Of a stretch of 41,972 nt of DNA, positions 15,836 to 34,185 are shown piece by piece. The notes below the pieces were generated by a model. That model saw only the letters and a list, made by a program, of their open reading frames with translations, was not told where the DNA came from and searched no databases. Each line of letters opens with the position of its first letter. The stretch's first letter is position 1. This DNA is from Acidobacteriaceae bacterium. Its GTDB lineage: Bacteria; Acidobacteriota; Terriglobia; Terriglobales; Acidobacteriaceae. The stretch covers positions 1 through 41,972 of the forward strand of contig JASHSG010000036.1 in NCBI GenBank assembly GCA_030040935.1, written 5' to 3'. A program made the position numbers and the translations under genes.

Positions 15836-16087
15836 TTACTGTTCGACGAACACCGAGATCGGCACCGTCTGGGTAACTCCGCCGCCAGTGGCCGTAATCG
15901 TCACGACGGTGTTGGTGCCCTTCGGCGGGGCCGGCGGTCCGTTATAGGCGCCGCAGCCGGAAAGCTGAATGGCCCCGATCACACCCGCGATCAGCACCAG
16001 AGCCAACATCAGACCGCGCCGTTTCTTCCAGCCAAAGAAGCACAGAGCAATTGCGAACGTTGCTCCAGCCGGGAGGAACGGGTTGGA
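15836..16087 (-). other. C-terminal helix-KKRR-helix-lipobox-tail module (copy A)
   Basis: These are the last 83 residues of the 1475-aa protein. Helix 1 is LPAGATFAIALCFFGW, followed by KKRR. Helix 2 is LMLALVLIAGVIGAI, ending in QLSGC with the Cys codon at 15953-15955. A 38-residue tail then ends VPISVFVEQ. It is the most divergent of three copies in the window. Confidence 0.7.
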
Positions 16088-19000
16088 ACGGTGTTGGAGA
16101 GACGCCGTGTTGCTGTCGGTGATCGTCAGGATAGTGCTGGTGGTCCCCGGCGGCGTTATGGTTGCGGGGTTGAAGACGAAGGTCACGCCTGACGGCGCAC
16201 CGCTGCTCGTGAAGGTGATGGGCACTGTGAATGCGGGGTTCGGCACGATCGTGATCGTGACGGTAGCAGAACTACCGGGCCCCACGGTTACTGAGGGTTG
16301 AGCCCCGATGGTGAAGTCAGGCGGTATCACCTGGAGGGTGTAGGTTGAGGCTCCACTCGCGCTGGGCGTATAACCCGCCAGCGTGGCAACAGCCGTGACG
16401 GTCACCGTGGCTGGATAGGTTTCAGCCGTGAGGGTAATGGCGCCCGCGTAAGTCTTGGCGGTTGAGCTGGTCAGCGGATTCGAGCCGTCCGTGGTGTAGA
16501 GGATGGCAGCGCCGGACGTAGAATCCGTGATGGTCGCGGTGTTCGACGTCCCGATGATCAGCGTGCTTCCGGTAGCTGGGCTGATTACCGGTGTTGCCAC
16601 TTGACCCAGCGGAGTTACAGCGACGGACCCCATGACCTGAGTCGCCGCCGCGTAATCGGCGTTGCCTGCCTGGTTAGCGTCGACCACGATGGTTCCCAGA
16701 CCGGTGGCGGTGAGAGTGCTACCGCTCAACGATCCGGCGCCCGCAGTGCTGGAGGCATCGAGTGTGAAGGTAACCGGGTTGCCGGACGCACCGCCGGTTG
16801 CCGACAGAGTTTCCGCCTTGCCGTAGCCGAGCGGAGTTGTCGGATTGAAGGTAATGGTCTGAGCGGCCTGGTTGACGACGATGGTACCGGTCACCGCGCC
16901 CGCAGCCAGGTAGTTAGCATTTCCAGCCTGACTCGCCGCGATCATGATTGTGCCGACTCCCGTAATGGTCAGGGTCGCGTTGTTCGTGCCGCTGAGGGTG
17001 CCAGGTCCGGACGTGAGAGAGAAGGTGACCGGATTGCCAGATCCACCACCGGACGCGCTCAGCGTGATCGGAGTGGTGCTGTAAGACACCGGTGAGGTCG
17101 GTTTGAAGGTGATCGTCTGCGGGGCCTGGGTGACGTCAATCGTGATCTGCACCTGAGGCGCGGCGGCATAGATCGGTGTGCCCGTCGTGGTGCCCGCCTG
17201 GTTGGCGTCGATGATCAGGGTACCCGCACCGGTGATGGTCAGGGTTGTCCCGTTGGTGCCGCTTACTGCCCCAACGCCCGCGGTACTTCCAGCGTCAACA
17301 CTGAACACGACCGGATTGCCGGAAGCGCCGCCGGTTGCCGACAACGTGTACGGGCCGCCGCCAAAGACGACCGGCGAAGTGATGCCGGCGAAGTCGGTGA
17401 TGGCCTGTGCGGTCGCGGCGCTGCCACTGACGGCGAAACCGCTGCCAGTGCTTCCGTTCACCGTGTCGTCCACGGTCAACGTGGATGAGACAGCGCCCGA
17501 AGCAGAGGCGGTGGGCGTGAAGGTGATGGTTGTCGGCAAGGATGAACCGCCGCCGAAGGTCAAGGCATCGCATCCGGCGGGCGCGGTCAAGGCGCCGGTG
17601 AACTCCGTGTCTCCGGAGGTGATGGTCAGCACCGGCGGATTGGTGCAGCCAAAGTCATCGAGCACCCAGACGTTGGTGGCCGTGGTTGGGGCCGCCGAAG
17701 AAGCCTGGCCAAGCACCGTCACCGAGCCAATGGCATTGAACGCCATCGTGTCGCTGCCGTTGTTGTAGCCGGCATAGTAGAAGTTGCCCTTGGTGTCAGA
17801 GGCGATCACCTTGGCGCCCGGTGCCGCGAGAGCAATCGGATTGGCCCATTCAAGGGTTCCTGAGTTGTTCAGGATTTCGTAGATGCCGGTGTACTGATCG
17901 GCAAAATACACATTGTTCTTTGAATCGATCGAAACCGCATCGATCTCGTTGTTGTACTTGCAAGGCGCCGCGGTGCAGACCGGTGTTTCGGTCTCGAGCA
18001 GCGTGGGAGCGGCCGCATAGCCCGTCGTCACCCCATTGAAGCCTGCGCTGGTGCTGGTTTTCAGCTCCTGCAGGTCAGAAGAGTGGCTGTAGGATGAGCC
18101 GCCTACGTCGATCAGGGAGTCGGTGAAGAATACATTGTCATTGGAATCGATGGAGATGGCGCCGACATAATACTGATCTGAAGCCGCATCGGAAGGAACC
18201 GTTTCGGCGTAGAGCAGGATCGGAGCCGTCGGCGTCGCACCGTAGAGGCAAGTCGGACCGCACTCAAGGATGGAGTACGGCTGGTTTGTAACGGTCGTCG
18301 AAGGCGACTCGTCGCTGGTGGTGATGAAGAGATTGCCATTCTTGTCGAAGTTAATGCCTGCGATACCAAAGGCAATCGTCCCATTGCCGACCACGATCTG
18401 GCAGATTCCCGCGTTGTCGGGCGCTACTCCATCGCCTTTGCAGGTGGGAGCGGCGGTGACTTGCGCGGCCGTGAAAGTGGGATAGGCTCCGCTGATAACG
18501 GGGAGCTTGATGATGGTATTGCCATATTCGTTTCCGGCGTAGGCATAGCCCGAGCTGTCAATGGCAACGGCGCCGACGCCGTTCAATGGCCCCAGATTCG
18601 CAACCACGGTGCCCGTGGAGGTGAACTGCTGGAGATCATTGCCATACGAGCTGCCTGCGAGGACGGCGCCCAACGTGGAGTTCAAGGCCATGGTGCCGCT
18701 ATCGGACGCATCCGCGCCGAAGACGCCGCCGCCCGTGAATGCCGCACCCCAGGTGTTCTGGCTAACCGAGGAGATGCTTCCGGCCTTGGCGATCACTGAA
18801 GACGAATCGCCCGACGCGGTGTCGTTCACCGTGAAACCGGTATAGGGCGTGACTCCGGTTGTCGGGGTGTAGGTGACAGTGACCGGGAACTCAGCAGCGG
18901 TTCCCAGAGATGATGAGCCGCAGGTACCCGCGCTGGCTGCAAATGGCGGATCCGGGACGGTGAACGTCAAAACGGCCGTGGAGCAAGGATCCGAGTTGTC

Positions 19001-20263
19001 CGCCACAAGAACCGTCGCCGTTGTTGCGGTTCCCGGGAACGACGGGCCGTCGAGCGATACATAGCCGACCGTGTCGGCGCCGCTGGTGTTAACTACGGTG
19101 GAGTAGCCCTCCACGTAGAAGTTGCCGTAGGTGTCTTTCTGCAGCAACTTCGTGCCCTGGTTGCTGATTGCGTAGATGCCTGCGGCGGTGGCTCCGGTTT
19201 TGCTGTTTGGGATACCGTAAATACCGGAGTTATCGAGGCCGATGTACACCTTGCCGTCCGATGGCGTTGGGTCGGCATATACCGCATCAATCTGATCGTC
19301 ATAGTTGCCGGGAGATGCGATAGTCAGGGTTTCGACCACTGTTGGCGCTGCCGTGAAACCAGTGGTTACGCCGTTGAATCCCGAGTTCGCAGTCGTGTCG
19401 ACGAGCATCTCGTTCAGGTGGGAGTCGATACTCTTGTTGCTGGTGTTGGCCAGAGCAGAATCGGTGAAGAAGAGGTTGCCCCAGGGGTCGATGGACATGC
19501 CGCCGACATAGAGCTGGCCGGTGGTACCCGGTGTGCTGGCGATGGGCTCCGCGTAGATAAGGACAGGGGCCGCGGTCGAGCCCGAAGCGGGATAAAGGCA
19601 CTTGGTCCCCGCCGCTTTGCACTCAAAAATTGAATAGGCCGGACCCACGCCGCCGGAATCACCCTGGTCGTCGGTGGCGAAGAACAGATCGTTGGCCGCG
19701 TCGAAGGTCATCGATTCCACACCGAAATAGCCGAGGGTCGATGATCCGAGTGATTTGATGATGCACTCTCCCGCGGTCTTGTCGGTGGCGGCCACGCCCG
19801 TGCAGGCGGGCAGCGCGCTGCCGCCAGAGCCGCTCGGATCGACGGTGTAGGTATAGGTTCCGTTGGTGTTCATCGGAATCTTTGCTACCACATTGGTAAA
19901 CTGGCCCGCCACATACAGAAAGTTATTGCTGTCAATGGCGACTGCGCCCGCGTTGGCGAAGGGTCCAACAACCGAGACCGCATAGCCGGGGCCGCTGAAC
20001 TGAATGATGTTGCCGCCATAGGTCTCGCTGGCCACGATAACGCCCATCGAGTTGATGCCCCAGGAGCCGCCCGCAGGAACGTCCCCTGCTAGAGCACCGC
20101 CATTCGGATAGGCCGTAAACCAAGTACTCTGGCTGACGATAATAGGGGCTGACGAGGCCGCGTTCGCGGCAGTCGCGAACAGGAAGATGGCCAGGATCGC
20201 GAGCAAAGCTACCACCGCGCCCCGCGACGCGTAACGCTCAAATTCCTTCAACTTCGTTTCCAT
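15836..20263 (-). CDS. Giant exported beta-propeller/Ig-like protein with C-terminal double-helix-lipobox module
   Basis: This 1475-residue protein starts with a long signal segment (AILAIFLFATAANA). Two related ~450-residue propeller-like copies follow (about 41-490 and 497-950; compare FNGVTTGFTAAPTVVETLT and FNGVTTGYAAAPTLLETET), with NHL-type strands such as GAVAIDSNNFLYVAG. Next come three MBG/Ig-like repeats (QTITFNPTTPLGYG type), a chitobiase-C-terminal-like domain (ATPVISPATGS, ILYTTDGSNP) and one more Ig-like domain. The last 83 residues form helix, KKRR, helix, LSGC, then a beta-rich tail. The start at 20263 is set by GGAGG upstream. No enzyme motif is seen. The likely role is surface binding or adhesion, inferred from architecture and the neighbouring glycosidases and receptor. 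Confidence 0.82.
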   Translation of the reverse strand: METKLKEFERYASRGAVVALLAILAIFLFATAANAASSAPIIVSQSTWFTAYPNGGALAGDVPAGGSWGINSMGVIVASETYGGNIIQFSGPGYAVSVVGPFANAGAVAIDSNNFLYVAGQFTNVVAKIPMNTNGTYTYTVDPSGSGGSALPACTGVAATDKTAGECIIKSLGSSTLGYFGVESMTFDAANDLFFATDDQGDSGGVGPAYSIFECKAAGTKCLYPASGSTAAPVLIYAEPIASTPGTTGQLYVGGMSIDPWGNLFFTDSALANTSNKSIDSHLNEMLVDTTANSGFNGVTTGFTAAPTVVETLTIASPGNYDDQIDAVYADPTPSDGKVYIGLDNSGIYGIPNSKTGATAAGIYAISNQGTKLLQKDTYGNFYVEGYSTVVNTSGADTVGYVSLDGPSFPGTATTATVLVADNSDPCSTAVLTFTVPDPPFAASAGTCGSSSLGTAAEFPVTVTYTPTTGVTPYTGFTVNDTASGDSSSVIAKAGSISSVSQNTWGAAFTGGGVFGADASDSGTMALNSTLGAVLAGSSYGNDLQQFTSTGTVVANLGPLNGVGAVAIDSSGYAYAGNEYGNTIIKLPVISGAYPTFTAAQVTAAPTCKGDGVAPDNAGICQIVVGNGTIAFGIAGINFDKNGNLFITTSDESPSTTVTNQPYSILECGPTCLYGATPTAPILLYAETVPSDAASDQYYVGAISIDSNDNVFFTDSLIDVGGSSYSHSSDLQELKTSTSAGFNGVTTGYAAAPTLLETETPVCTAAPCKYNNEIDAVSIDSKNNVYFADQYTGIYEILNNSGTLEWANPIALAAPGAKVIASDTKGNFYYAGYNNGSDTMAFNAIGSVTVLGQASSAAPTTATNVWVLDDFGCTNPPVLTITSGDTEFTGALTAPAGCDALTFGGGSSLPTTITFTPTASASGAVSSTLTVDDTVNGSTGSGFAVSGSAATAQAITDFAGITSPVVFGGGPYTLSATGGASGNPVVFSVDAGSTAGVGAVSGTNGTTLTITGAGTLIIDANQAGTTTGTPIYAAAPQVQITIDVTQAPQTITFKPTSPVSYSTTPITLSASGGGSGNPVTFSLTSGPGTLSGTNNATLTITGVGTIMIAASQAGNANYLAAGAVTGTIVVNQAAQTITFNPTTPLGYGKAETLSATGGASGNPVTFTLDASSTAGAGSLSGSTLTATGLGTIVVDANQAGNADYAAATQVMGSVAVTPLGQVATPVISPATGSTLIIGTSNTATITDSTSGAAILYTTDGSNPLTSSTAKTYAGAITLTAETYPATVTVTAVATLAGYTPSASGASTYTLQVIPPDFTIGAQPSVTVGPGSSATVTITIVPNPAFTVPITFTSSGAPSGVTFVFNPATITPPGTTSTILTITDSNTASLQHRSNPFLPAGATFAIALCFFGWKKRRGLMLALVLIAGVIGAIQLSGCGAYNGPPAPPKGTNTVVTITATGGGVTQTVPISVFVEQ
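17414..20143 (-). repeat. Internal duplication of a ~450-residue propeller-like unit
   Basis: Residues 41-490 (nt 18794-20143) and 497-950 (nt 17414-18775) share the order SQ-TW, GG(N/D)-QF, GAVAIDS, GFNGVTTG(F/Y)-AAPT, E-T, (Q/E)IDAV, GIY-I and an Ig-like segment ending in VDDT or VNDT. The copies are clearly related but diverged, so the duplication is old. Confidence 0.7.
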
Positions 20264-21484
20264 CACAAATCCTCCGGTGAAATGTCGTTTCAGATATGGG
20301 GGAACAGCAGTAGCGTTCCGCACGTTGACTCGATTCCTTGTCCTTACTCCCGATCCTTCCAGTAATGAGAAGGTTTGTGGCCTGACCCGGTGGACTCGGG
20401 AGTCCCAATTCCCCTGGGCTGAATCTTCAGCAAAATGTCATTACGAATAAGCCCATCCTCCTTGCGCGCCCAGTTCCGCTCCGTGAAAGTGATACGAGGA
20501 AACTTCAAACCTCATTGATCGCCCTAACATCGGCCCGCCTCTCCCTCCGACGATTTGCGCCGCTTCCGGGCAAAGCACCGATCAGGCAAGTTGGGTTCGG
20601 AGGCGCGGTTACCCACGCAGAACCGTGTCTGTTACCGCTCCCAGAGCGAGTCCGAGTATATTCGCAGCACACACCGATATTGGCGACCCCAGAACTACTG
20701 AAAGAAATGCGGAATTATATTCATACTCAAAAAGGCGGTTGTCAAGAGAATTCACGCAGTGGATTTCTCGCGATAGAAGCGGGCCGAGCCGGGAGTAAAT
20801 CGATTCCGGGCGAGAAGCGGCATCGCCCAGGGCCGGCAAACATCTTCCGGAACGTGGGGAGAAAGGCAACCCGACCGGAAAGGCCTTTTGACTTTGGCCA
20901 CCCCTGTCCAACCGCAGTTTGCGCTGGCGTAACCGCCGTGATGGTATCGCGACCGCTATACACAGCCCGGTTGTGCCGGCCGCCAGACTCGGTTCCGGCC
21001 TGGAGCGGCAGAAATTCAACGAATTCAGACAGGTTCATCGAAATAAACGATTAAGCACGGGGATAAAGAGCGACCATTTCCGTCCCGCAGGTTGACGCGC
21101 CCGTCGAGTGCGAAGCTTTTTGAATGGTTCCGGTCCCGGCGTTCCGGTAGTAACGGAGATGCATGAAGAGGTTAGCCTCAGGCTCTCGACGCGGATCCCG
21201 AAACTTCCCGGAAAAGCCAATCCAAAGCCGCAATGCCGATCGATCTTGATTTCCTTATCAGAGACTTTCTTCCGAGGATGGACGCGCCGGGGGAAATGGC
21301 GCGAGCTTTTCATTCGCTCCGCGCACGTTGCGCTGACTCACAGAGGTCACACGAAAGAGCGTGGCCGCGGCGAGGCGAATAAATGTGGCTAATGAAACTA
21401 AATCAATTTAATTCAGGCCATAATAGAATTCCAGACTTCCCGATATTGTGGCCAAAAGCGGTGCGCGAGATTCATAATTACCGC
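20264..21484. other. Long intergenic region between divergent genes, no gene called
   Basis: This region of about 1.2 kb (1.37 kb gene to gene) lies between the minus-strand propeller/Ig gene and the plus-strand TonB-dependent receptor. Several overlapping open frames of 60-180 codons exist, but their translations are low-complexity and none has a ribosome site, so none is called. An AT-rich patch near 20700-20745 holds promoter-like boxes for the minus strand, and AT-rich DNA near 21380-21540 holds one for the plus strand. GC-rich inverted segments at 20860-20990 could be structured RNA but match no riboswitch that I recognise. Confidence 0.5.
20714..20745 (-). promoter_or_regulatory. Candidate promoter toward the propeller/Ig gene
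   Basis: On the minus strand perfect TTGACA (20740-20745) and perfect TATAAT (20714-20719) occur, but with a 20-bp spacer, longer than the optimum of 17. If active, it would give a leader of about 440 nt before the ATG at 20263. Confidence 0.35.
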
Positions 21485-21514
21485 TTGACTATTCTCCACA
21501 GGGAGCCCCATAAT
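21485..21514 (+). promoter_or_regulatory. Candidate promoter of the TonB-dependent receptor
   Basis: TTGACT (21485-21490) and CATAAT (21509-21514) are spaced 18 bp, in AT-rich DNA. They lie about 125 bp before the receptor ATG, which implies a leader of about 118 nt. Confidence 0.5.
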
Positions 21515-21638
21515 TTGAACCCGATATTAACTTAGTGAAATTTGGGTCGATCTGGGGTCGTACGTTCTCGGGCGGTGTTATCGTTATCATCGCGCACCGA
21601 ATCTCGCAATATCAGGACAGCCAAGGGGGGTTGTTACG

Positions 21639-24600
21639 ATGAAGTCTTTTCCTGGATTCAAGCAGGCGTCCGCATGTTTGGGGCTGTTTCTCGCGGTGCT
21701 GCTGTTGTGGCAAATACCCGCCCAGGCACAGGAGACCACAGGCAGCGTATCGGGCGTTGTTCAGGATACGACAGGCGCGGTGATACCGAACGCTGTGGTG
21801 ACAGTCGTCGACCTGACCAACCAGTCGGAACGCAAGACCGTCAGCAATGGCACCGGAGAATTCGCCATCAACTCGATTCCGGCCGGGCTGCGTTATCAGG
21901 TGCGGGTGGAGATGAAGAACTTTTCACCGTGGCAGTCGCAGCCTTTTCCACTGCGGCCCGGCGATCGCGTGACTTTCACCGACATCCGCATGCAGGTGGC
22001 TCAGGCCGCTGAACAGATTACGGTCGAGGCGGCCAATACCCAATCGCTCAAGCCGCTGGATACGCCCGAGCGCAGCGATGTGATCACCGCCGAGGATCTG
22101 GACACGCTCGCCATCGTGGGCCGCGATGCCACGGAGCTGATTGAGATGCTGCCGGGGTTCGCAATGATCAGCAACCAAGTCAATAACCAGGCGCCAAATA
22201 CGGCTGTTTCGGGTTTGAGTGGTCCCACCGGCTCGTACTCTGCCAACGGCGCCGGGCCCACCGGACTGGCGACGGTGATGGATGGCGTCTCCATTCAGGA
22301 CATCGATACGAATGCCGGGACCGTGCAGCAGGTCAACTCCGACATGATCCAGGAGATCAAGGCCACGACGTCGACGTTCAGCGCCGAATACGCCAAGGGG
22401 CCGGCCGTGCTGAACGCAACCACCAAGGCAGGCACCTCCGCCTACCACGGCGAGGCCTACATGTATGCCCGCGATACGGTGTTCAACGCCAACGACTGGT
22501 ACAACAACTATCTGCAGCAGACGCGGCCCCCGGGCCGATATCTCTTTCCCGGCGGTCAGGTAGGTGGTCCGCTGTGGATTCCGGGCACTCAGTTCGGTCC
22601 GCACAACAGCAAGCTTTTCTTTTTCGCTGGCTATGAATATTACAACCAGAATTTCTGGTCGCAGACGCTCGGTTCGTGGGTACCCACCATGTCGGAGCGC
22701 AGTGGCGACTTCAGCGCAGCGTCATTGAATTCCGAACTGTGCGGCGCTCGTCCCGACGGCGGAGTGAACCTGGATGCCGTTTTGCCCATGTGTTATGCGG
22801 ATAACTACCTGCCTGGCGGGCAAACTGTGGCGGATGGCAACGTGAACGCATATGCCAATCCGAGCGGCGTGGCTCTGGTAAATTGGCTGCCGCTGCCGAA
22901 TGCCAATCCCTTCGTCAACGAGCAGGGTTACAACTATGTTCAGCAGGTGATCCAAACCCAGAATGGCACACAGTTTCACGCCCGCGTCGATTTCAACCTG
23001 AGCGACTACAACAAGTTCTATGCCACCTATGGCCGTCAGGCACAGATCACCGACGAGCCGGTTGCATGGGGATACGCGCCAAACAACTCAATGTTGTATC
23101 CCGGCCAGGTCACCTCGGGCGATATTTCGAACATATTCTCCCTCCATTATGTGCGGATCTTCGGCAGCAGCGTGACCAATGAAGCCAGTGCCTCGATGTC
23201 CTTTATCAGCGACCCGGCCAACATGGGCAACCCCACCGCTGTGAGCCGGTTCCACATGAACGACTACAACTGCAACAATGTGGCTGAGCGGGCGGCGGGG
23301 ACTTGTAACAATCCCGCCAGCGACAATTTCAACTATCTGGGCGAATACAAGAATAACTACGATTACTCAGTACCGGCGCTGTCGGACTACGGCTCTTTGG
23401 GCTATCCCAACATGCTGATGCCGGGCGGTTTCTACAACGACCAGGTCAAGATGAAGAAGGTCGTGCCTACCCTGGCCGATACAGTGAACTGGGTGAAGGG
23501 ACCGCACAGTCTCGCCTTTGGCTTATATGCCGAGCGGGGCATTCTCAACGGCGATGCAGACTACGCTGCCGCGTTCCCACAGGGAGAATACGACTTCACT
23601 CCAGGCAATGGATACTACGAGTACAACGGAACTCAGGGGTTGTCGTTCTACAACAGCAACTACATAGGCTGCGAAAATCCGGATCCGAACGGCACCAGCC
23701 GTCTGTCGGGCGCGGCGTATTTCGGCAGCTGCATCAATCCTGTGGCCATGATGTACATGGGCTACGCAGATTCCTTCACCCAGACGAACTTTTCGCCGAT
23801 CGTGGACATGCAGTACACCACGTTGTCTGGATTCGTGAACGACGCCTGGAAGCTTCACCGGCTCACATTGATGCTTGGCGGCCGTTTGGAACACCTTGGA
23901 CCATGGTTCGACCGCCATGGCAATGGCTTGGCTACCTTTTCTCCCTTCCTCTACAACAGCCAGTGCACGGGCCGCGACTGCAGCAGCGAGGCTCTGCCGG
24001 GAATCACATGGTACAAGGTCAATCTCGGCGTCCTGAACTCAGTGAATAAGCCGGCGTTGCTAGATTTCAGCCCGCGCGTGGGCGCCTCGTGGGATCTGTT
24101 CGGGACCAGCAAGACGGTGCTTCGCGGTGGATGGGGAATGTATCGCAACCAGGAGCCGTTTTCACCTTATGCGCTGGCGGCCGCCAGTGCCCAGGGTTAC
24201 AAAACGAGCCAGTCGCTCGGAATCCTGAGTTTCGATCTGGTCGACAACCAATCGCCCATCAATCCTCCCGATATCAACGTCTACACGCTTTCCAGCACCG
24301 ATAAGGTTCGCCCCCTCTATTACCAATTCAATGTGACCGTGGACCAGCGCCTGATGTGGAATTCGCTGATGGAGGTTGCCTACGTCGGTAGCGAGAACAC
24401 CAACCTGCCTACCTATAATCTGGGAGCCAGCGGGTACAACGGCGCATCCGACCTAAACGTGCTTCCCCTGGGCGCGTATTTCCAGCCCAGTTTCTCCATT
24501 TCCAATCTGCCGGCCTCGATCATCGAGCCCAATACGGGCGGTGACCTGAGCACCCTGACCACGGCGGAACAGGACTTCTACAGGACATATCCGTTCTACC

Positions 24601-25580
24601 AGCACATCTATTCGCTGAAACACGATTACTATTCGAATTACAACAGCCTGCAAGTGAGCTGGAACAAATCCACCGGCTTCGTGAGTTGGGGCGCGAACTA
24701 CACCTTCTCGAAGGACCTGGCCACGGCCGCGTCCTACAACAACGAACTGGCGGATCCCCTGAATCTGCGCAACGATTACAACCCGGCGCCGTTCGATCGC
24801 AGCCAGGTCTTCAACATCCACTATCTTGTCAACTTTGGACGCCGTTATACGGGCAGCAGCGCCCTCTTGTCCAAAGTCGTGAACGGTTGGCAGGTCTCCG
24901 GCATTTCTACCGTGCAGAGCGGCCCCGACCTGACTTCGGAGGAGGGCGAGAACTTCTCCTTTGGGTATGGAAATATTCAGGCAACTCAGCTCTATTTGCC
25001 ACAACAGGTCAATAGTCCAGGTCAATCCGCAAAGACCTGCGCAAACGTCTATGACATTTCGCCGGACAAGAACGGAAACACGTATTGCGTGACCAACATG
25101 AATCCGGTGGTTTGGCTGGGGACGCCGGATTATCTGTTGATGCCGACACTAAACTGCAACCCGTCGGGCGGAAGCGCGAAGAATCAGTTCATCCACGCGA
25201 CCTGCTTTGGGCTCCCGCTGCCGGGCAGCCCCACGACGGGCAATTATGCGCTCTCGGCGAATCCCAGCGGGCAGGGGCAGTACCGGCTTCCGTACATCCA
25301 CGGTCCCGCCTTCTCAAACCACAATGTGACGCTGATCAAGGACTTTTCGATGCGAGAAAGCCGAACCCTGGAATTCAAAGCCTCGGCGTTCAATTTCCTC
25401 AACCACCCGCTGGTTTCATTCAACAACAACGACAATTCGAATTTGAATCTCGGCAACCTGCTGGGAGCGGTTCCAGGCCAGGCTCTGACCGAGGCAATGC
25501 TGGGGCATAAGGATTTCGGAATTGCCAATGTGAAATACGGCTCGCGCCTGCTGGAATTCAGCGCAAAGTATTCGTTTTAG
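21639..25580 (+). CDS. TonB-dependent receptor, Oar-like, with N-terminal carboxypeptidase-regulatory-like domain
   Basis: This 1313-residue outer-membrane protein has a signal peptide (cleavage near AQA30-Q31) and a carboxypeptidase-regulatory-like domain at about 33-115 (GSVSGVVQDTTGAVIPNAVV). The plug follows at about 135-260 (GRDATELIEMLPGFAM, VMDGVSIQDIDT), then a very long beta-barrel ending in Phe (LLEFSAKYSF), as outer-membrane proteins do for BAM recognition. Such receptors take up oligosaccharides or siderophores using TonB energy, and acidobacterial genomes carry many. The start is supported by GGGGGG about 7-12 nt upstream. It heads a plus-strand series with two giant NHL/Ig genes. 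The ligand cannot be read, but flanking GH44, GH30 and GH2 enzymes point to plant polysaccharide fragments. No SusD-like gene is adjacent. Confidence 0.9.
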   Translation: MKSFPGFKQASACLGLFLAVLLLWQIPAQAQETTGSVSGVVQDTTGAVIPNAVVTVVDLTNQSERKTVSNGTGEFAINSIPAGLRYQVRVEMKNFSPWQSQPFPLRPGDRVTFTDIRMQVAQAAEQITVEAANTQSLKPLDTPERSDVITAEDLDTLAIVGRDATELIEMLPGFAMISNQVNNQAPNTAVSGLSGPTGSYSANGAGPTGLATVMDGVSIQDIDTNAGTVQQVNSDMIQEIKATTSTFSAEYAKGPAVLNATTKAGTSAYHGEAYMYARDTVFNANDWYNNYLQQTRPPGRYLFPGGQVGGPLWIPGTQFGPHNSKLFFFAGYEYYNQNFWSQTLGSWVPTMSERSGDFSAASLNSELCGARPDGGVNLDAVLPMCYADNYLPGGQTVADGNVNAYANPSGVALVNWLPLPNANPFVNEQGYNYVQQVIQTQNGTQFHARVDFNLSDYNKFYATYGRQAQITDEPVAWGYAPNNSMLYPGQVTSGDISNIFSLHYVRIFGSSVTNEASASMSFISDPANMGNPTAVSRFHMNDYNCNNVAERAAGTCNNPASDNFNYLGEYKNNYDYSVPALSDYGSLGYPNMLMPGGFYNDQVKMKKVVPTLADTVNWVKGPHSLAFGLYAERGILNGDADYAAAFPQGEYDFTPGNGYYEYNGTQGLSFYNSNYIGCENPDPNGTSRLSGAAYFGSCINPVAMMYMGYADSFTQTNFSPIVDMQYTTLSGFVNDAWKLHRLTLMLGGRLEHLGPWFDRHGNGLATFSPFLYNSQCTGRDCSSEALPGITWYKVNLGVLNSVNKPALLDFSPRVGASWDLFGTSKTVLRGGWGMYRNQEPFSPYALAAASAQGYKTSQSLGILSFDLVDNQSPINPPDINVYTLSSTDKVRPLYYQFNVTVDQRLMWNSLMEVAYVGSENTNLPTYNLGASGYNGASDLNVLPLGAYFQPSFSISNLPASIIEPNTGGDLSTLTTAEQDFYRTYPFYQHIYSLKHDYYSNYNSLQVSWNKSTGFVSWGANYTFSKDLATAASYNNELADPLNLRNDYNPAPFDRSQVFNIHYLVNFGRRYTGSSALLSKVVNGWQVSGISTVQSGPDLTSEEGENFSFGYGNIQATQLYLPQQVNSPGQSAKTCANVYDISPDKNGNTYCVTNMNPVVWLGTPDYLLMPTLNCNPSGGSAKNQFIHATCFGLPLPGSPTTGNYALSANPSGQGQYRLPYIHGPAFSNHNVTLIKDFSMRESRTLEFKASAFNFLNHPLVSFNNNDNSNLNLGNLLGAVPGQALTEAMLGHKDFGIANVKYGSRLLEFSAKYSF

Positions 25581-25766
25581 GTAGTCGCACCTGGTCCGGT
25601 GCGCCGCACGCCGGATCGCGTTTTGAAGCAGCTCCATCGCGGCGGGAATCGGGCCGGTTGTTTGGGATACGATAATGCCGCGCTCCGGAAGGGACGACTG
25701 CAAGATGCGGGCAGGCGGCTGGGCCGTTTGCAGCAATTCTGAATGAGATTGTTCGTGGAGAGTGTC

Positions 25767-28700
25767 ATGGTCATGGAGATGAGAACGTATTTTCGCCGGC
25801 TGGTCAGCGTTGGGGTCGGATTCCTGGGGGCGGCATTGATGTTGGGCGGGGCCGCGCGCGGACAGGCTCCGGCGGTATCCACGGGCTCGATTGTCAACAT
25901 CCCGTTCAGCACTACCTGGGGCCAGATCTATGTAATTCGCTTTTATAAGGGGAATGTTCTGGCGCTTGATTCAGGAGCCGGCGCCCTGTATCAGCTCTCC
26001 CCGGGCGCGACCTCATGGACAACGCTGTCTTCGGCCTCCAGCTCTTCACCGCTGGGCACCGGCGGCTACAACACAATCGGCATGGCGATCGATGCTGTGG
26101 GCAATCTCTATCTTGGGATTCGCTATCCGGTCGCTGCCGCCCCCAGTGCACTGTTCTGGCGCATTCCCTATGATTCCGCCAAGAACACCTGGGACGTCAC
26201 AACGAGCTACGCCTGGGGCAGCAACATTATCGACCCCAACAGTGGCGCAACAGTCGTCAGCGAGGGCGGCTCGGACTGGGTCGATTTCGTCAACAGCTCC
26301 AAGATGGACGGCAGCGGAACGCTCTACTGGGTTACGGAGAACCCCAACGAAATCTATACGGCTCCCGTCGATGCCTCAGGGAATGCGGACTTGCCCAATG
26401 GGGTGAACGCCAATTCCATCGTTACCGGTCTTGAGACCGATGGAGATTACCTGGCCGAAGACGTCAGCGGCAACATCTACCTGGTTGAAAACCATGCCGT
26501 AAAACCGGCAGCGCGCGTGCCGGGCATCTACTTCATTCCTGCCGGCACGTCGGGGATCGTGGGATCGGAGGGGAGCGCGGAGGCGCAGTTGATTCGAATC
26601 GATTCGAGCAGCAATCCGGTGGTGTATGCCGGCATAACGCTCGATGCTTACGGGAACATTTATGTGCCTTCGGAGGTGAACTCCAGCTATGGCGAGACAG
26701 TGGCGGGCATCTGGAAGATTCCGAACGAATGCGGGAGCGCGGCTGCGGTAAACAGCTCCTGCCTCCCCAATTTCAACGACATTTCCCTTTACGCTCCGGT
26801 TTCAAGCAACAACCCCGTATCCATCGATTCGCGCGGATACGTGTGGATCCCCACCTATCAGGATTGGAGCCCCAACGGGTCCGGACCCTATCCGAATCTG
26901 TATGCGATCGCTGTATGGGCTCCGGGATCCATCAATCTCGGCGCCGCGCCGACGGGCGCTGCGGGACCGGCGGGCAAGTTATTTATCGACTTCAACCAAC
27001 CCATCACTCCCGGCGGCATTCAATTTTCGCAACCGGGAACTGGCTCGGACTTCACTATCGCAACAACGGACCCCACTCCGCCAACGACTGCGCCGGCAAC
27101 TTCCCCGGCCTGCACGTCGGGAACCGCATATTCCGTCCAGAACATATGCCAGGTTTGGGTGGCGCTTGATGCGCGCAAACCCGGGGCCATCTCTGGCCAG
27201 CTCATGTTGCTGAACTCGAGCAATTCGCCCGTCGCTGGCAGCACTGTTTATCTGAGCGGCATCGGACAAGGCTCGGAGGCATCTTTGCTCTCTTTAGCGG
27301 CGCAGAGCACGGTTGCAGCCGGTCTTGATACGCCGGCGCAGGTGGCTGCCGATGCGGTGGGAGACACGTGGGTCGCCGACGCGGGCCTGCATCAGGTGCT
27401 GAAATTCAGCGCCGGCTCCACCACTGCGGTAGGCGCCCCCGTTGGGAAAAATCTCGTTGCGCCCACCGGAGTTGCCGTGGACGGATCTGGCGATTTGTAC
27501 ATCGCGGACTCGGGAAAGGTGATCGAGATTCCGTGGGTCAATGGAGCTCTCGACACTGCCGGTCAAACCACATTGGCCACAGGATTCGGAAGCGATCTGA
27601 ACCTGGCTGCAGACGGCGTCGGCAATGTTTATGTGGCTGATCCGAAGAATTCCCGTGTCGTCAAGATTCCCAGCCCCGAAACCGCGCAGTTGTACCCCGA
27701 CTTTGAAACCATACCCGCCACTTCCCTTTCCACGACCGTCACGATGGGCTCCGGATTCAGCGCACCTTCGGCAATTGCGACCGACAACTCCGGCGACTTG
27801 TTCGTTGCCGATGGCGCGAATCTCTATGAGATCACGCCGTGGGATGTCCAGACGGAGCTGCTGAACTCCCTGACCGGGCCGGTAACTGGCCTGGCAGTGG
27901 ATGCTTCAGGATCGGTGGACGTGGCACAGAGCGGCGGAGTTCTGCATATCCCCGCCATTGCAGGGGTTCTCAGCTTCAACAGCGCAAGTTCGCTGGATGA
28001 TTCTGTCATTGCCGCGCCCAATGGCGTGGCTCTCGATCAAGAGGGCAATCTGTACGTCACCGACATGACGAGCGGTACCCCGAATCTCTTCGAATTGAGC
28101 GCGAATGGGTTCGTGAATTTCGGTGTTGGCCTCACTCCCACCGTCCTTGCCGAGGAGGACGTGCCGGTGTTCAATATCGGCAATGAGAATCTGACGGTGA
28201 CCGGGACTCCGACCTTCAGTGGTCCCGATGCCAGCGATTTTTCTGTGACCACCCCGAGCGGTGGAACCCCTTGCGACACGACGGGCGCGACGCCCGTGGC
28301 CGCCGGCAATGCATGCACCATCGGAGCCGGCTTTACGCCGCCGCCGCCACCGGCGGGCGATATTTTGCCGATCACCTATTCCGGCGATACGATGACGATC
28401 CCAACCAATGCGGGCAACGTTGCGGGCGGCGATGTGTCTGCCGGACTGGAAGGCAGCGCGCTGGCCGGGCTTGAGGCGACCCAGGCGACCGTCTCACTGA
28501 ACCCCGCGACCACAACCTTCCCGGGCAGCACTGCCGTGACGGTGACAATTACTCCGGAGCCAGGCGGCGGCATAGATTATCCCACCAACGTGCCGTCGGG
28601 AACCGTGACTCTGACCCTGACCAGTACAGTCGCGGGCAGCACGCAGCCCCCGCTGGTTGAAACGGCTCAGGCCGCCGGGAATGACACCGGAACAACGGCG

Positions 28701-29726
28701 ACATTTACGCTGACCGGTATTCTTGGGGGCACCTACAACGTAACGGCAGCGTACGGGGGAAATCTCGCTCAATTGTTCCAGAAGAGCCAGAGCTCACCCG
28801 TACCCCTTACCGTTTCGCCGGCAGCGCCCACCATCTCGCTGCCCGAGCCCACGGGTGTCCAGCCGAACAGCCAGAACGGCGTTTACTATGTGCTGCTCCA
28901 CGGCGATACGACCCTTACCGCGAATGTTGCGTCCACGCTGGGAACGCCGACCGGCTTGGTCACATTTATGAACGGAACTACGGCAGTGGGTACCGCGGCG
29001 CCGGATGCAAACGGGAATGCGAGTCTCAACCTGGGCACCCTGGTAGCGGGCAACTACACCGTCACAGCCGTCTACAGTGGCGATCAGAACTTCGCTTCAG
29101 TGACCTCGCAAAGCGTCTCCTTCCAGGTGATCCCGGCGAGCGTATTGATCTGGGCCAACCCGACTTCGGTTTCGACCAAGGGAGGGACGCCGGTGTCGAG
29201 CACTCTCAGCCTGGAGTCGCTGGTCGGATTCACGGCCACCAACGGGGCCAACATCACATGCGACAACAGCACGATGCCGAACGATGCCGAATGCACGTTC
29301 AGTGTTCCTCAGCCTGACATTTGCGCGCCTACCGGTCAGGCGGGCAACACATGTTCCGGCATCACAACGACGGTCGTAACCATCAGCACCAACATTCCGG
29401 TGAATATCGGGAGCACGCAGCAGAACAGGTCTCGTACCTCTCCTCTTGTTCTGGCCGGCATTTTCGGACTTGGCCTGCTGGGACTGGGGCTGCGCAGAAG
29501 AGCGACCTTTAATCGATATCTCTTCGGCGCCATCAGCCTTGTGTTGTTCCTTACCGGTGCGGTCTTGGGCGTGAGCAGCTGCACCAACTCGGGTTACACC
29601 AAGACGCCGGCAGTTCCAACCTATACCACCCCGACCGGCACGTATAACGTGAGCATTATCGTCACCAATCCAGGGAACGGCACGCAAGAGTCATTGCCCT
29701 TCACCCTGGGGGTGACGATCCAATAG
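25767..29726 (+). CDS. Giant exported NHL-propeller/Ig-like protein with C-terminal double-helix-lipobox module
   Basis: This 1319-residue protein has a signal peptide (GVGFLGAALMLGGAARGQA) and an N-terminal propeller-like region. A run of NHL-type strands follows in the middle (GVAVDGSGDLYIADSG, ADGVGNVYVADPKNSRVVKI, IATDNSGDLFVADG). Next are a choice-of-anchor-D/ASH-like segment (FNIGNENLTVTGTPTFSG) and two Ig-like repeat domains of the type PSGTVTLTLTS and PTGLVTFMNGTTAVGTA. The last 95 residues are the helix-RRR-helix-Cys-tail module. The ATG at 25767 is chosen among four in-frame ATGs because GGAG lies 6 nt upstream. It follows the receptor by 186 nt and precedes a paralogue by 130 nt on the same strand. 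No catalytic motif is seen; a surface binding role is inferred. Confidence 0.85.
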   Translation: MVMEMRTYFRRLVSVGVGFLGAALMLGGAARGQAPAVSTGSIVNIPFSTTWGQIYVIRFYKGNVLALDSGAGALYQLSPGATSWTTLSSASSSSPLGTGGYNTIGMAIDAVGNLYLGIRYPVAAAPSALFWRIPYDSAKNTWDVTTSYAWGSNIIDPNSGATVVSEGGSDWVDFVNSSKMDGSGTLYWVTENPNEIYTAPVDASGNADLPNGVNANSIVTGLETDGDYLAEDVSGNIYLVENHAVKPAARVPGIYFIPAGTSGIVGSEGSAEAQLIRIDSSSNPVVYAGITLDAYGNIYVPSEVNSSYGETVAGIWKIPNECGSAAAVNSSCLPNFNDISLYAPVSSNNPVSIDSRGYVWIPTYQDWSPNGSGPYPNLYAIAVWAPGSINLGAAPTGAAGPAGKLFIDFNQPITPGGIQFSQPGTGSDFTIATTDPTPPTTAPATSPACTSGTAYSVQNICQVWVALDARKPGAISGQLMLLNSSNSPVAGSTVYLSGIGQGSEASLLSLAAQSTVAAGLDTPAQVAADAVGDTWVADAGLHQVLKFSAGSTTAVGAPVGKNLVAPTGVAVDGSGDLYIADSGKVIEIPWVNGALDTAGQTTLATGFGSDLNLAADGVGNVYVADPKNSRVVKIPSPETAQLYPDFETIPATSLSTTVTMGSGFSAPSAIATDNSGDLFVADGANLYEITPWDVQTELLNSLTGPVTGLAVDASGSVDVAQSGGVLHIPAIAGVLSFNSASSLDDSVIAAPNGVALDQEGNLYVTDMTSGTPNLFELSANGFVNFGVGLTPTVLAEEDVPVFNIGNENLTVTGTPTFSGPDASDFSVTTPSGGTPCDTTGATPVAAGNACTIGAGFTPPPPPAGDILPITYSGDTMTIPTNAGNVAGGDVSAGLEGSALAGLEATQATVSLNPATTTFPGSTAVTVTITPEPGGGIDYPTNVPSGTVTLTLTSTVAGSTQPPLVETAQAAGNDTGTTATFTLTGILGGTYNVTAAYGGNLAQLFQKSQSSPVPLTVSPAAPTISLPEPTGVQPNSQNGVYYVLLHGDTTLTANVASTLGTPTGLVTFMNGTTAVGTAAPDANGNASLNLGTLVAGNYTVTAVYSGDQNFASVTSQSVSFQVIPASVLIWANPTSVSTKGGTPVSSTLSLESLVGFTATNGANITCDNSTMPNDAECTFSVPQPDICAPTGQAGNTCSGITTTVVTISTNIPVNIGSTQQNRSRTSPLVLAGIFGLGLLGLGLRRRATFNRYLFGAISLVLFLTGAVLGVSSCTNSGYTKTPAVPTYTTPTGTYNVSIIVTNPGNGTQESLPFTLGVTIQ
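29439..29726 (+). other. C-terminal helix-RRR-helix-lipobox-tail module (copy B)
   Basis: These are the last 95 residues of the 1319-aa protein. Helix 1 is VLAGIFGLGLLGLGL, followed by RRR. Helix 2 is YLFGAISLVLFLTGAVLG, ending in VSSC with the Cys codon at 29580-29582. A 47-residue tail has PTGTYNVSIIVT and ends LPFTLGVTIQ. Helix 2 with its basic lead-in reads like a bacterial lipoprotein signal peptide. Confidence 0.8.
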
Positions 29727-29746
29727 GGAGTTTTTCAGAGCAGTCA

Positions 29747-29780
29747 GCTTTCGGAGGGCGCTCGGTGACCCTCCGGAAGC
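29747..29780 (+). other. Intercistronic hairpin between the two NHL/Ig genes
   Basis: GCTTTCGGAGGG (29747-29758) pairs with CCCTCCGGAAGC (29769-29780), a 12-bp stem with one wobble and a 10-nt loop. There is no T-run after it, so it is not a typical terminator. It may modulate read-through or protect the upstream mRNA end. Confidence 0.6.
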
Positions 29781-29856
29781 GCAGGAGATGCAGGTTTTCA
29801 TGCCGCGGTTTTACACAACGAGCAAGGTTGGTATGAGTCTTCCAGGGAGAAATATC

Positions 29857-32800
29857 ATGTTGAACAAACCATTCATTTCGCTGCGCCGGTTCTCGGAATG
29901 TGCGTTGACGATCTTGTTCCTCGCCGGAACCCTGTGCGCGGCGGCTCATGCGCAGGCTACGCCGACCATCGCGAGTTTCGCAACCGGGGTGAATCATAAT
30001 ACGGCTACGAAGCCCATCAGCCCGGGAAACATCGCGAACATCGCGACAGACAGTTTCGGCGACGTGCTCGCTGTGGATGATTCGAATGGTGCACTTTACG
30101 AGTTCCCCTTTGGCGGCGGAAATGCCAAAGTCCTTGTTCCCACCGGCGGTCTGGCCGGCGGCTCGGGCACGATTGTCACCCCGGGAATTGCCATCGATTC
30201 GGATAACAATCTCTATATTGAGGGCGGTACGTGCGTATTGATGTATCCCTACGACAGCGGGACCGCGACGTGGGATTTATTGGCGGCGCTTTCTAAAACC
30301 AACACATCCGCGGCCGTTTGCGGCGCGAGCGCGCCAACCTTCACCAATTTCGGAACCGGCGTGGTGGCTCTCGGTTTGGCGATCGGCAACACCAGCACTC
30401 CGAACGTCCTGGCTGGAACCACCTCCTCGACAGGCAACAGCATCGTGAGCATCCCCGTCACAGGAGCGTGGACGGCTCCAGTCGCAGGAGCGCCAACTGC
30501 CATCATCTCGGGCATGAAAGCGCCGGCAATCTCGGTTGCCGAGGATACAACCGGCAATATCTATTTCGTTGAGAGCGGTACCGGAGCTCTGCCAGGAGTT
30601 TACAAAATCCCCGCCGGACAAACAGGACTCACTTCGGATTCAGGCCTGGCGCGCATCGACCCCAGCTTGCCCAACGCCGACGGCGTGGCCGTGGACAGCC
30701 AGGGCAATATTTACTTCAGCGACAACCAGGAAGGTGTTTTCCTTCTTCCCGAGGGTGCCACGTCGAGCAGTTCCACTCTTCTGCTGACTTCGGTGACGGC
30801 GCAGGGTTCCGTGGCATCGTACGGTAACGGTTTCTTGTTCGTTCCGACGCAGCAAACGCTTTGGAATGGCGTGTCCGACGTTGCGATCGTCACCTTCGAC
30901 GCGGCAAATTTCGGTTCCGAGGCCATTGCGCCCGCCTCGCCCGTGCAAGGACAGGTAGTCTTCAGCTTCAATAGTTCCAACAGCATCACTCCGGGCACGA
31001 TTGAGGTGCTGGAGTCAGGCGACGCCAACCCCAATTTTGCGGCGGGGAGTGGCAGTAAAAGCCCGGCCTGCGTGACCATGGCGCAGGCTCCATCTACGGG
31101 CTCTCCCTTGCCCTACACGGCCCTGGAGTCCTGCACTGTCACCGTGTCCTTCTCTCCCAGCGCGACGGCCGGCGTCTCAGCCACTCTGGTCATGTTAGAC
31201 ACCAAAGGGAACCTGATCGCCTCCATTCCTCTGAATGGGATTGGGATAGGTGGAGCGGTTCAGGTGATGCCGCCGGCGCAGACGGCGATTGGCGGCGGTC
31301 TCATTTCGCCCCAGCAGATCGCCGTGGATTCCGGCGGCAACGTTTACGTGGCTGACTCTGGCCAGGGTGCCGTGGTGCATGTCTATCCGGGCGCCACAGC
31401 GACTTTCGTCGGCAAAAATTTGAAAGCGCCGACGGGAGTGGCCGTGGATGGAGCCGGCGATGTCTTCATCGCCGACAGCGGCAATGTCTACGAAGTGCCG
31501 GAAACCGCAAGCGGCTTGAATGCTGCTGGTCAAGTGACGCTGGCGACCGGTCTGGGCGCGCAAGTCGCGCTGGCTGCCGATGGTCTCGGCGATCTCTATG
31601 TGTCCGATGAGGACAACCAAAAGGTCTATGAGCTTGAGAATTTCAGCGCGGGCACAAATACCGGGCTGCCTCCGATACTCAACTCCGAAGACATAACCCT
31701 GACAGGAACCGCATTCAGCGGCGCGCCCTCTGCGATCGCGGTGGATTCGGCCAACAATCTCTATGTTGCGAACGGCGGCAGCGTGTACGAAGTCACTCCG
31801 ACCGGAACTCAGACCGCGGTTCTAAGCGGCCTGACCGGCGTGACAGACCTGGCGGTCGATCCCTCTGGTTCGATCTACATCACGGCGACGGGCGGAACAG
31901 TCCGTATTCCCAACGTGAGTGGGACGCTCAAGACAGCCAATGAGACGGCGGTGGCCAGCGGGGTGACCAAACCGACTTCCGTGGCCATGGATCTTCTGGG
32001 GAATGTCTACGTAACCGACGGGACTGCCCTGAACGTGAACGTGACCGAAGCCAGTGCGTCTCTCAACTTTGGTACGCTGACCGCCGACCCAACCACCAAG
32101 CCGGCGCCGCCGGGATCGTCCTCGTCGCAGGTCGTCACGCTTCTGAACTATGGGAATGCGCCCTTGGCGGTGACAGGCTACACAAGTACACCCGACGTCT
32201 TCGAGCCCGACTATTCGGAGACATCCGATACCTGTTCCGGCAATTCGATCGCGGTGAACTCGACCTGCACTGCAACCATCACCTTCAGTCCTGGTATCGG
32301 CGACGGCGGCGCGCTGACGGGAGAAGTTCTGGTTCAGGGTAACGTGGGCAATTCGCCCGTGGGAGTGAACGGTACCGGCGTGGCCCCAACGTTATCCAAT
32401 ACCGCGACCGCGATGGTTGCAAGCAGCAAAGGCACCATTGAAGGAGTTCCCGTCATGGTCACGGTTACTCCCACCGTGGCCGGCAATCCAACACCCACAG
32501 GAACGGTGACCCTTTCGATCGTTCCCGGCAGCAATGTTCCGCTTACCGATCCGACGAATTTTCAATATGAGATGAACGCGCAGGATCAGGTAGTGTATCC
32601 GCTCCAGGTGACGGAGCCGTACTCCGTTACGATGAGCCTGGTTGGCACAACAGGCGCGGCCCAGTTCGATCCAACGTTCTTCCCGATCGGAGCTTACACA
32701 TTTACGGCCAGGTACAACGGCGATCCGACCTATATCTACGAGCACTCCAGCAACGCGGCGGGGGTCTCAATCGCTACGGCGGTGCCGGTGACGTTGACGC

Positions 32801-34185
32801 AGCCTGCGGTCGCATCGATTACGGCCACTCAACCGCTTTATACGCTCCCCTGCACATCGGGATCCGGCGCCACGTGCACGACTGCATATAACTACGGGCA
32901 GCCTTCGAATAACCCTCCAGGCTATCTGGTACTGGCAGGGGGAAATGGCGCCCAGCAGCCGTACGACGGCTCAATAAATTCGTGGGGTTATATCTATCCT
33001 CTAACGGTCGCGTCTGACAGTGGCGATCCCATGATTGGCACAGCCGTGTACAGTAACGGAGCCCAAACCGGCTGGAACTACGGGGCTGTGAACTATGTCA
33101 CGACAAACGGGCAGTCTGCTTGCGGCAACGGCGCTGGAAGCAAATCCATTGTCAATCTGGACGATACCGGATCAGCGCCGCTTGATGTATCTTGCTTTGC
33201 CATCAATACGAACAACAATACGATCCCCGATATCATGACCTATTATTCGGTCACCCCCGAATATAGCGGAACTTATAACGATCTGGTGAGCGTCAATCCC
33301 AACTATGAGAATTCGAGCAATGGGCAAGCGGTTGGTTTCTGGGCGCTCAGCCACTCCATGGTGCAGATCGGCGCCAGCCCCGCTTCGGTCAATGTTGCCG
33401 CAGGATCCGCAGCATCGACGACGCTCACGATCAGCTCGATCCTGGGATACGGATATGCGGGGCGCACCTCGAACGGAGGCCCCGACAATAACTATTCGCT
33501 GCCACTGAGCCTGACGTGTCAGGGCTTGCCGGCATACGCCACGTGTTCCTTCAGCTATCCCGCGCCGAACCCTGCTGATCCGCAGGTGGCCGGCGCCGCA
33601 ACGCAATCGCCCTACCCGCCGATTCCGCCGAACCTGGTCGCGCTCGAATGCGCCCCGGGCAGCAGCCAGCAATACTGCGCCGTCGATGTAGGTCCTGTTG
33701 CCGGCGCCGTCAATGGATACGGGCTCTTCCATTCAGGGAACCAGAGTACGCCTTGCACTGCGGTCGACGGATGTCTCGGGCCGGGCACCGTGGTAATGAC
33801 CATTAACACCAATGTGTCTGTGGGAACCAGCACCTCAAAGCTCGCAAAAGACAAGGAAGGCGTCGCTTTCGCGGCCTTGTTCGGGCTGGGCCTGCTGGGG
33901 CTCACATTCCGCCGCAGAGTCTCGCGGATGAAAGGTTTGCTGGTGGTACTGTGTGTGCTGCTCTTTGGCGGCGCTTTCGCCACCCTTACCGCATGCAGCA
34001 CAACACAGCTGGGCACGGAATCTACAGCCGCGGTGACACCCGCCGGAAGTTACTGGGTCACCGTAACGGCCAAGCAGGCCGGCAGCATTCTGATTACCAC
34101 CACAAACGGCGGAATCGTGGTGGTCCAGGGCAACGGAGACCAGATGTCCCTGCCGTACACAGTGAATGTGACAGTGAGTCAGTAG
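29857..34185 (+). CDS. Giant exported NHL-propeller/Ig-like protein, paralogue with C-terminal double-helix-lipobox module
   Basis: This 1442-residue paralogue of the preceding gene has a signal peptide (LTILFLAGTLCAAAHAQ) and an N-terminal propeller-like region (NIATDSFGDVLAVDDSNGAL). NHL strands follow (IAVDSGGNVYVADSG, GVAVDGAGDVFIADSGNVYE, IAVDSANNLYVANGG), then a choice-of-anchor-D-like part (VVTLLNYGNAPLAVTGYTS, NSTCTATITFSPG) and Ig-like repeats (PTPTGTVTLSIVPGS). A Cys-containing region unlike the neighbour comes at about residues 970-1330, and the C-terminal module occupies the last 108 residues. The start at 29857 has GGGAG about 9 nt upstream and places the signal peptide correctly. 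It is likely in the same transcript series as the receptor and the upstream paralogue. Function is not assigned; no enzymatic motif is visible. Confidence 0.85.
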   Translation: MLNKPFISLRRFSECALTILFLAGTLCAAAHAQATPTIASFATGVNHNTATKPISPGNIANIATDSFGDVLAVDDSNGALYEFPFGGGNAKVLVPTGGLAGGSGTIVTPGIAIDSDNNLYIEGGTCVLMYPYDSGTATWDLLAALSKTNTSAAVCGASAPTFTNFGTGVVALGLAIGNTSTPNVLAGTTSSTGNSIVSIPVTGAWTAPVAGAPTAIISGMKAPAISVAEDTTGNIYFVESGTGALPGVYKIPAGQTGLTSDSGLARIDPSLPNADGVAVDSQGNIYFSDNQEGVFLLPEGATSSSSTLLLTSVTAQGSVASYGNGFLFVPTQQTLWNGVSDVAIVTFDAANFGSEAIAPASPVQGQVVFSFNSSNSITPGTIEVLESGDANPNFAAGSGSKSPACVTMAQAPSTGSPLPYTALESCTVTVSFSPSATAGVSATLVMLDTKGNLIASIPLNGIGIGGAVQVMPPAQTAIGGGLISPQQIAVDSGGNVYVADSGQGAVVHVYPGATATFVGKNLKAPTGVAVDGAGDVFIADSGNVYEVPETASGLNAAGQVTLATGLGAQVALAADGLGDLYVSDEDNQKVYELENFSAGTNTGLPPILNSEDITLTGTAFSGAPSAIAVDSANNLYVANGGSVYEVTPTGTQTAVLSGLTGVTDLAVDPSGSIYITATGGTVRIPNVSGTLKTANETAVASGVTKPTSVAMDLLGNVYVTDGTALNVNVTEASASLNFGTLTADPTTKPAPPGSSSSQVVTLLNYGNAPLAVTGYTSTPDVFEPDYSETSDTCSGNSIAVNSTCTATITFSPGIGDGGALTGEVLVQGNVGNSPVGVNGTGVAPTLSNTATAMVASSKGTIEGVPVMVTVTPTVAGNPTPTGTVTLSIVPGSNVPLTDPTNFQYEMNAQDQVVYPLQVTEPYSVTMSLVGTTGAAQFDPTFFPIGAYTFTARYNGDPTYIYEHSSNAAGVSIATAVPVTLTQPAVASITATQPLYTLPCTSGSGATCTTAYNYGQPSNNPPGYLVLAGGNGAQQPYDGSINSWGYIYPLTVASDSGDPMIGTAVYSNGAQTGWNYGAVNYVTTNGQSACGNGAGSKSIVNLDDTGSAPLDVSCFAINTNNNTIPDIMTYYSVTPEYSGTYNDLVSVNPNYENSSNGQAVGFWALSHSMVQIGASPASVNVAAGSAASTTLTISSILGYGYAGRTSNGGPDNNYSLPLSLTCQGLPAYATCSFSYPAPNPADPQVAGAATQSPYPPIPPNLVALECAPGSSQQYCAVDVGPVAGAVNGYGLFHSGNQSTPCTAVDGCLGPGTVVMTINTNVSVGTSTSKLAKDKEGVAFAALFGLGLLGLTFRRRVSRMKGLLVVLCVLLFGGAFATLTACSTTQLGTESTAAVTPAGSYWVTVTAKQAGSILITTTNGGIVVVQGNGDQMSLPYTVNVTVSQ
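33859..34185 (+). other. C-terminal helix-RRR-helix-lipobox-tail module (copy C)
   Basis: These are the last 108 residues of the 1442-aa protein. Helix 1 is VAFAALFGLGLLGLTF, followed by RRRVSRMK. Helix 2 is LLVVLCVLLFGGAFA, ending in LTAC with the Cys codon at 33994-33996. A 62-residue tail has PAGSYWVTVTA and ends LPYTVNVTVSQ. Compared with copy B the tail carries a ~15-residue insertion. Confidence 0.8.

Follow-up and report, generated by a model that had tools for sequence, protein, structure and literature searches.

We analyzed the 41,972 nucleotides of a contig from an Acidobacteriaceae soil bacterium (hereafter, the window), which contain three large genes designated genes 1, 2, and 3 (proteins P0001, P0002, and P0003). 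All three genes were translated, and the positions of the module that they share at their C termini were re-read (Table 1). In each protein, the module consists of a first hydrophobic helix (TM1), a basic cluster (KKRR in gene 1 and RRR in genes 2 and 3), a second hydrophobic helix (TM2), a lipobox Cys, and a short beta tail, and the gene and module placement given in a preliminary description proved exact to the base. The tails extend 38, 47, and 62 residues past the Cys in genes 1, 2, and 3, respectively. The three N termini are ordinary signal peptides, none of which carries a lipobox.

Table 1. Genes and module features in the window
Feature	Position	Strand	Basis
Gene 1 (1475 aa): Sec/SPI-type N-terminal signal, repetitive beta-rich body, Ig-like repeats, C-terminal split-Ig hairpin module	15836..20263	-	
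Gene 1 N-terminal signal peptide (...FATAANA), without lipobox	20156..20263	-	sequence
Gene 1 last Ig repeat, strands A-E, ahead of hairpin	16115..16315	-	AlphaFold, pLDDT 93-96 in most blocks
Gene 1 membrane hairpin TM1 - KKRR - TM2	15962..16063	-	sequence + AlphaFold
Gene 1 lipobox Cys (LSGC)	15953..15955	-	sequence
Gene 1 tail, predicted strands F and G (final two) of the same Ig domain	15845..15913	-	AlphaFold pLDDT 96 + hairpin-excised profile
Gene 2 (1319 aa): NHL propeller, Big_3_5 Ig repeats, C-terminal module	25767..29726	+	domain matches
Gene 2 N-terminal signal peptide (...AARGQA), without lipobox	25767..25868	+	sequence
Gene 2 NF058595 match, entire split module	29364..29714	+	genome profile scan, E 2.1e-9
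Gene 2 TM1 - RRR - TM2 - VSSC	29445..29582 (Cys codon 29580-29582)	+	sequence
Gene 2 tail including final two strands	29583..29723	+	sequence
Gene 3 (1442 aa): NHL/SBBP propeller, Ig repeats, C-terminal module	29857..34185	+	domain matches
Gene 3 N-terminal signal peptide (...AAAHAQA), end without lipobox	29857..29958	+	sequence
Gene 3 NF058595 match	33787..34104	+	genome profile scan, E 1.7e-10
Gene 3 TM1 - RRR - TM2 - LTAC	33859..33996 (Cys codon 33994-33996)	+	sequence
Gene 3 tail, above usual length, insertion between its two strands	33997..34182	+	sequence

The neighbors of the hairpin genes in the window encode a TonB-dependent receptor-like protein as well as GH44, GH2, and ROK proteins, a neighborhood that suggests polysaccharide use and that we take as context only. 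The receptor-like gene (positions 21639-25580, + strand) adjoins the hairpin genes and encodes an outer membrane protein with a carboxypeptidase-regulatory domain (OMP_b-brl_4, Plug). Two neighbors, the GH44 protein (11779-15390, - strand) and a protein that resembles a GH30-type enzyme by eye (34589-37381, + strand), have ordinary N-terminal lipoboxes (VTACGGGG and LAGCGGG, respectively) and no C-terminal hairpin. Within the window, an N-terminal lipobox and the hairpin never occur in one protein.

The module corresponds to NCBIfam NF058595 (invert_tail, "lipo-invert putative C-terminal anchoring domain"), for which the function is listed as "putative" and whose C-terminal location with hairpin and Cys is that of the window modules. 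In a profile scan of the genome, the three window modules scored 38.9, 39.0, and 42.6 bits, all above the cut-off of 37 bits. hmmscan of the full-length proteins against NF058595 gave lower values, below the cut-off, for P0002 (32.6 bits, E 8e-8) and P0003 (36.1 bits, E 7e-9) and no match for P0001; thus, the membership of the window modules is near the cut-off. Across this incomplete genome, the scan recovered 13 modules or fragments and a weak 14th match. As the latter is the N-terminal lipoprotein signal of the neighboring gene at 34589, the combination of TM2 and Cys resembles such a signal to the profile. The NCBI curators' independent choice of "lipo" in the name agrees with the lipoprotein-signal reading. 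The suggestion that the hairpin might be an undescribed anchor therefore falls, since NF058595 already names it: the module is a named, uncharacterized domain, and the idea of a lipo anchor is not new. A literature search for the "lipo-invert" name or for the arrangement yielded no relevant paper. The new finding is that the hairpin interrupts the last Ig-like repeat.

The distribution of the module was evaluated in a sample of the phylum comprising 297 genomes (31 Acidobacteriaceae and 266 others) at a threshold of E<=1e-7. The module was present in all 31 Acidobacteriaceae genomes, usually in about 10 copies each; per-genome matches ranged from at least 2 to at least 14, with the best 14 candidates per genome scored. 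Outside the family, 7 of the 266 genomes had a single match, which was strong in two. A second profile, constructed for this analysis, again detected the module in 31/31 family genomes and gave weaker candidate matches beyond the family. The named loci with the module are nearly all from Acidobacteriota metagenome-assembled genomes, and a match is also carried by plasmid NC_015057.1 of Granulicella tundricola. Strong single copies beyond the family were seen on contigs G216:C4 and G272:C7 (L059 and L066) and at L193, one contig being labelled Aminicenantes. Modules were also seen at L191 and L203, whose contigs, assigned to Rhodanobacteraceae and Gammaproteobacteria bins, may be misbinned Acidobacteriota.

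The cargo of the module includes S8 subtilases, kumamolisin-type proteases, and propellers of the NHL, SBBP, FG-GAP, and BNR types. Given this diversity, the module is a putative anchor of general use and does not belong to any single propeller family. Nor is it restricted to NHL propellers: proteases and other propellers are found among the cargo, and of the window proteins, P0002 and P0003 match NHL in Pfam but P0001 does not.

Sequence conservation was measured on 93 modules that had been collected with a profile that includes the Cys. In this set, the Cys was present in 93/93 modules and formed the most conserved column (4.32 bits). Poor conservation of this residue had been named in advance as a possible refutation; the residue was invariant and held as well in the Cys-blind search described below. 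Position -1 was G, A, or S in 91/93 modules and position +1 was Gly in 65/93, and an uncharged run of 14 to 22 residues (mode, 17) separated the basic cluster from the Cys in 90/93. A Gly/Ser tether lies downstream of the Cys, Asp is absent among the listed residues directly after it, and 34 to 75 residues remain from the Cys (counted) to the end. These properties fit the proposal that helix 2 and its basic lead-in are a lipoprotein signal. The proposed likeness of helix 1 to a C-terminal sorting signal found no such backing, as no motif was conserved in or before TM1 across the 93 modules (<=1.6 bits). The terminal Gln, present in all three window proteins, is a preference (47/93 modules) and not a fixed feature.

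In order to obtain a search blind to the Cys and the hairpin, we removed the hairpin from 18 modules and built a profile, A1, from the flanks only, with which 31 genomes were searched. A1 matched many uninterrupted repeats over all 100 of its positions, often in tandem. Among the 150 matches listed, 113 ended at positions 97 to 100, 30 ended at positions 72 to 81, and 7 ended in between; the break at positions 72 to 81 is where terminal copies are interrupted. We then read onward 20 truncated matches from genomes that had given no sequence to A1, the sole test free of the bias of a Cys-containing profile. In 19 of the 20 cases, the sequence continued into two hydrophobic stretches, [GAS]C, and a tail at the protein end; the exception was L165, the end of which is lost. 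Because A1 finds whole tandem repeats while terminal copies break at the hairpin, the tail is not an independent element. Instead, it is formed by the final two strands of the last Ig-like repeat, the hairpin lying between strand E and strand F. In place of a free-standing element, the tail is the end of an Ig-like domain that begins with strands ahead of the hairpin.

Structure prediction supports the assignment of the tail to an Ig-like fold, as its final two strands. In the AlphaFold model of a window module, the strands ahead of the hairpin mostly had pLDDT values of 93 to 96 and the tail strands 96, with lower values in the hairpin; in a consensus-like relative, both halves of the Ig domain reached 97 to 98. 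The weak spots of the models are the hairpin (confidence, 62 to 83) and a pTM of 0.65 to 0.67. In Foldseek, single Ig-like domains aligned to the models on both sides of the hairpin gap, with matches to HYDIN (2e6j, TMt 0.58), a sialidase (1eut, TMq 0.47), and the S-layer protein SbsC; as the E values are weak (mostly >1e-3), these matches indicate the fold class and no specific relative. Together, the full-length A1 matches and the predicted fold make the hairpin-free domain homologous to uninterrupted Ig-like repeats.

Some individual frames deserve mention. In L228:2-1126, inspection by eye places an FN3-like domain after the lipobox Cys and ahead of the final two Ig strands; such a natural domain insertion within the tail linker is to be expected if this linker is exposed. 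A 66-residue frame with a lipobox, L009:1486-1683 (G000:C127:7900-8082), was considered as a standalone tail gene and rejected because it lacks both a good start codon and a partner gene; it is probably a decayed gene fragment. L224 and L229, short frames with no recognizable Ig part upstream, were left out.

We consider it fairly probable that the module anchors the protein to the membrane at its C terminus by means of a lipoprotein-signal hairpin placed in the E-F loop of the final Ig-like repeat, with processing by Lgt and LspA leaving the tail clamped non-covalently. According to this proposal, the ordinary N-terminal signal peptide would export the protein, TM1 would act as a stop-transfer segment, the basic loop would remain in the cytoplasm, and TM2 would restart transfer and bring the tail out. 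Given the N-terminal signal, the two helices, and the basic loop, the positive-inside rule would expose the sequences on either side of the hairpin at the outer surface of the inner membrane. They could fold together there, the tail returning to the Ig domain to form its strands F and G. The Cys would then sit where TM2 ends on the outer side, in the position and orientation required by Lgt and LspA. These general enzymes would read TM2 as a type II signal, diacylating the Cys and cutting on its amino side. The tail would become a small lipoprotein held in the Ig domain by strand pairing and, provided that the complex persists, the large chain would be tethered at its C-terminal end. LspA was found as a single copy in each of the 21 relatives searched (21/21), which leaves no candidate for a dedicated paralogue, so the general enzyme would act. 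In a crude scan, the recognizable N termini of other carriers were SPI-like and not lipoboxes; thus, these carriers would have no other lipid anchor. The broader proposal, that LspA frees a lipoprotein of about 40 residues, clamped by strand complementation, and that this split-domain lipid anchor holds about 10 large exported proteins per Acidobacteriaceae genome, is more tentative, and we place its chances slightly below even.

A point against the Lgt/LspA-processed anchor is that TM1, the loop, and TM2 would stay on the large chain after a cut at the Cys, which makes the lipid seem redundant. Removal of these helices as well would give the lipid a role, but TM1 has no motif in its vicinity that hints at a second cut. 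Two helices would suffice to hold the protein, and the hairpin could be an uncleaved anchor under the last Ig domain, its Cys perhaps lipidated by Lgt or otherwise important but not followed by an LspA cut. The similar lengths of TM1 and TM2 (about 19 and 17 uncharged residues) are consistent with such an arrangement, in which the split Ig domain would remain covalent and stable. However, a plain hairpin has no use for an invariant Cys, the small residue at -1 (91/93), the Gly at +1, or the Gly/Ser tether, and we regard this explanation as rather unlikely. Still less probable, in our opinion, is a sorting process with two cuts, by LspA at the Cys and by another intramembrane protease that removes TM1, after which the lipid on the tail alone would hold the protein and Lol would move it to the outer membrane. 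TM1 followed by Arg does resemble the tripartite C-terminal signals, and the lack of Asp among the listed residues after the Cys would, by the E. coli rule, allow export through Lol, but the absence of a conserved motif in or before TM1 sets the module apart from PEP-CTERM, GlyGly-CTERM, and MYXO-CTERM. As short hydrophobic and Ser/Thr-rich sequences readily converge, chance hydrophobic C termini or unrelated TM segments were also weighed. This explanation is refuted, with practically no likelihood left to it: the preliminary description had argued that repetition speaks against chance, and this is borne out by the invariant Cys, by profile E values that reach 6e-28, and by the presence of the module in 31/31 family genomes against 0/14 control genomes with NF058595 at E<=1e-7.

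Altogether, the earlier observation is confirmed and its interpretation is partly supported. If the cleavage proposed for the Lgt/LspA-processed anchor is real, an internal type II signal combined with strand complementation in cis would constitute a route of C-terminal lipid anchoring that we found described in no paper, and would account for the retention of many large propeller and protease proteins by Acidobacteriaceae. The split Ig repeat makes a two-part, non-covalent anchor concrete and testable by standard lipoprotein methods.

Among known systems, NF058595 is the same module, its profile covering strand E, TM1, the basic loop, TM2, the Cys, and the tail; the split of the Ig repeat comes from the present analysis and is not mentioned in the visible text of the model. 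The classical bacterial lipoprotein signal read by Lgt and LspA shares with the module a basic n-region, a hydrophobic run, a [LVA][ST][GAS]C lipobox with its invariant Cys and small residue at -1, and a Gly/Ser tether, and LspA is present in the organism. However, the classical signal is N-terminal, whereas the signal described here is internal, near the C terminus, and behind a stop-transfer helix. A comparison with N-terminal lipoproteins by regular expression mostly caught unrelated Cys residues and serves as background only. MYXO-CTERM, the myxosortase substrate, likewise combines an invariant C-terminal Cys, a TM helix, and an Arg cluster, with a proposed role in the lipid anchoring of large surface proteins (PMC11980579). 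There, the Cys lies ahead of a single TM, no lipobox is defined, and the Arg cluster is the last element of the protein (PMC11980579), whereas here the order and topology are reversed, a lipobox is present, and the Cys stands behind a second TM and is followed by the tail in place of an Arg-rich terminus (34 to 75 residues remain, Cys counted). The GlyGly-CTERM/rhombosortase and PEP-CTERM/exosortase systems resemble the TM1 part of the module, a hydrophobic helix and a basic cluster near the C terminus, but here the chain runs on through a second helix and no conserved motif precedes TM1. In donor-strand complementation of pilus subunits (Caf1/Caf1M), an Ig-like fold is completed by strands of a separate chain; 1z9s was listed by Foldseek as one of many Ig-like matches. 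The likeness to donor-strand complementation holds if the tail is cut, with the difference that both parts here come from one gene and would complement each other in cis.
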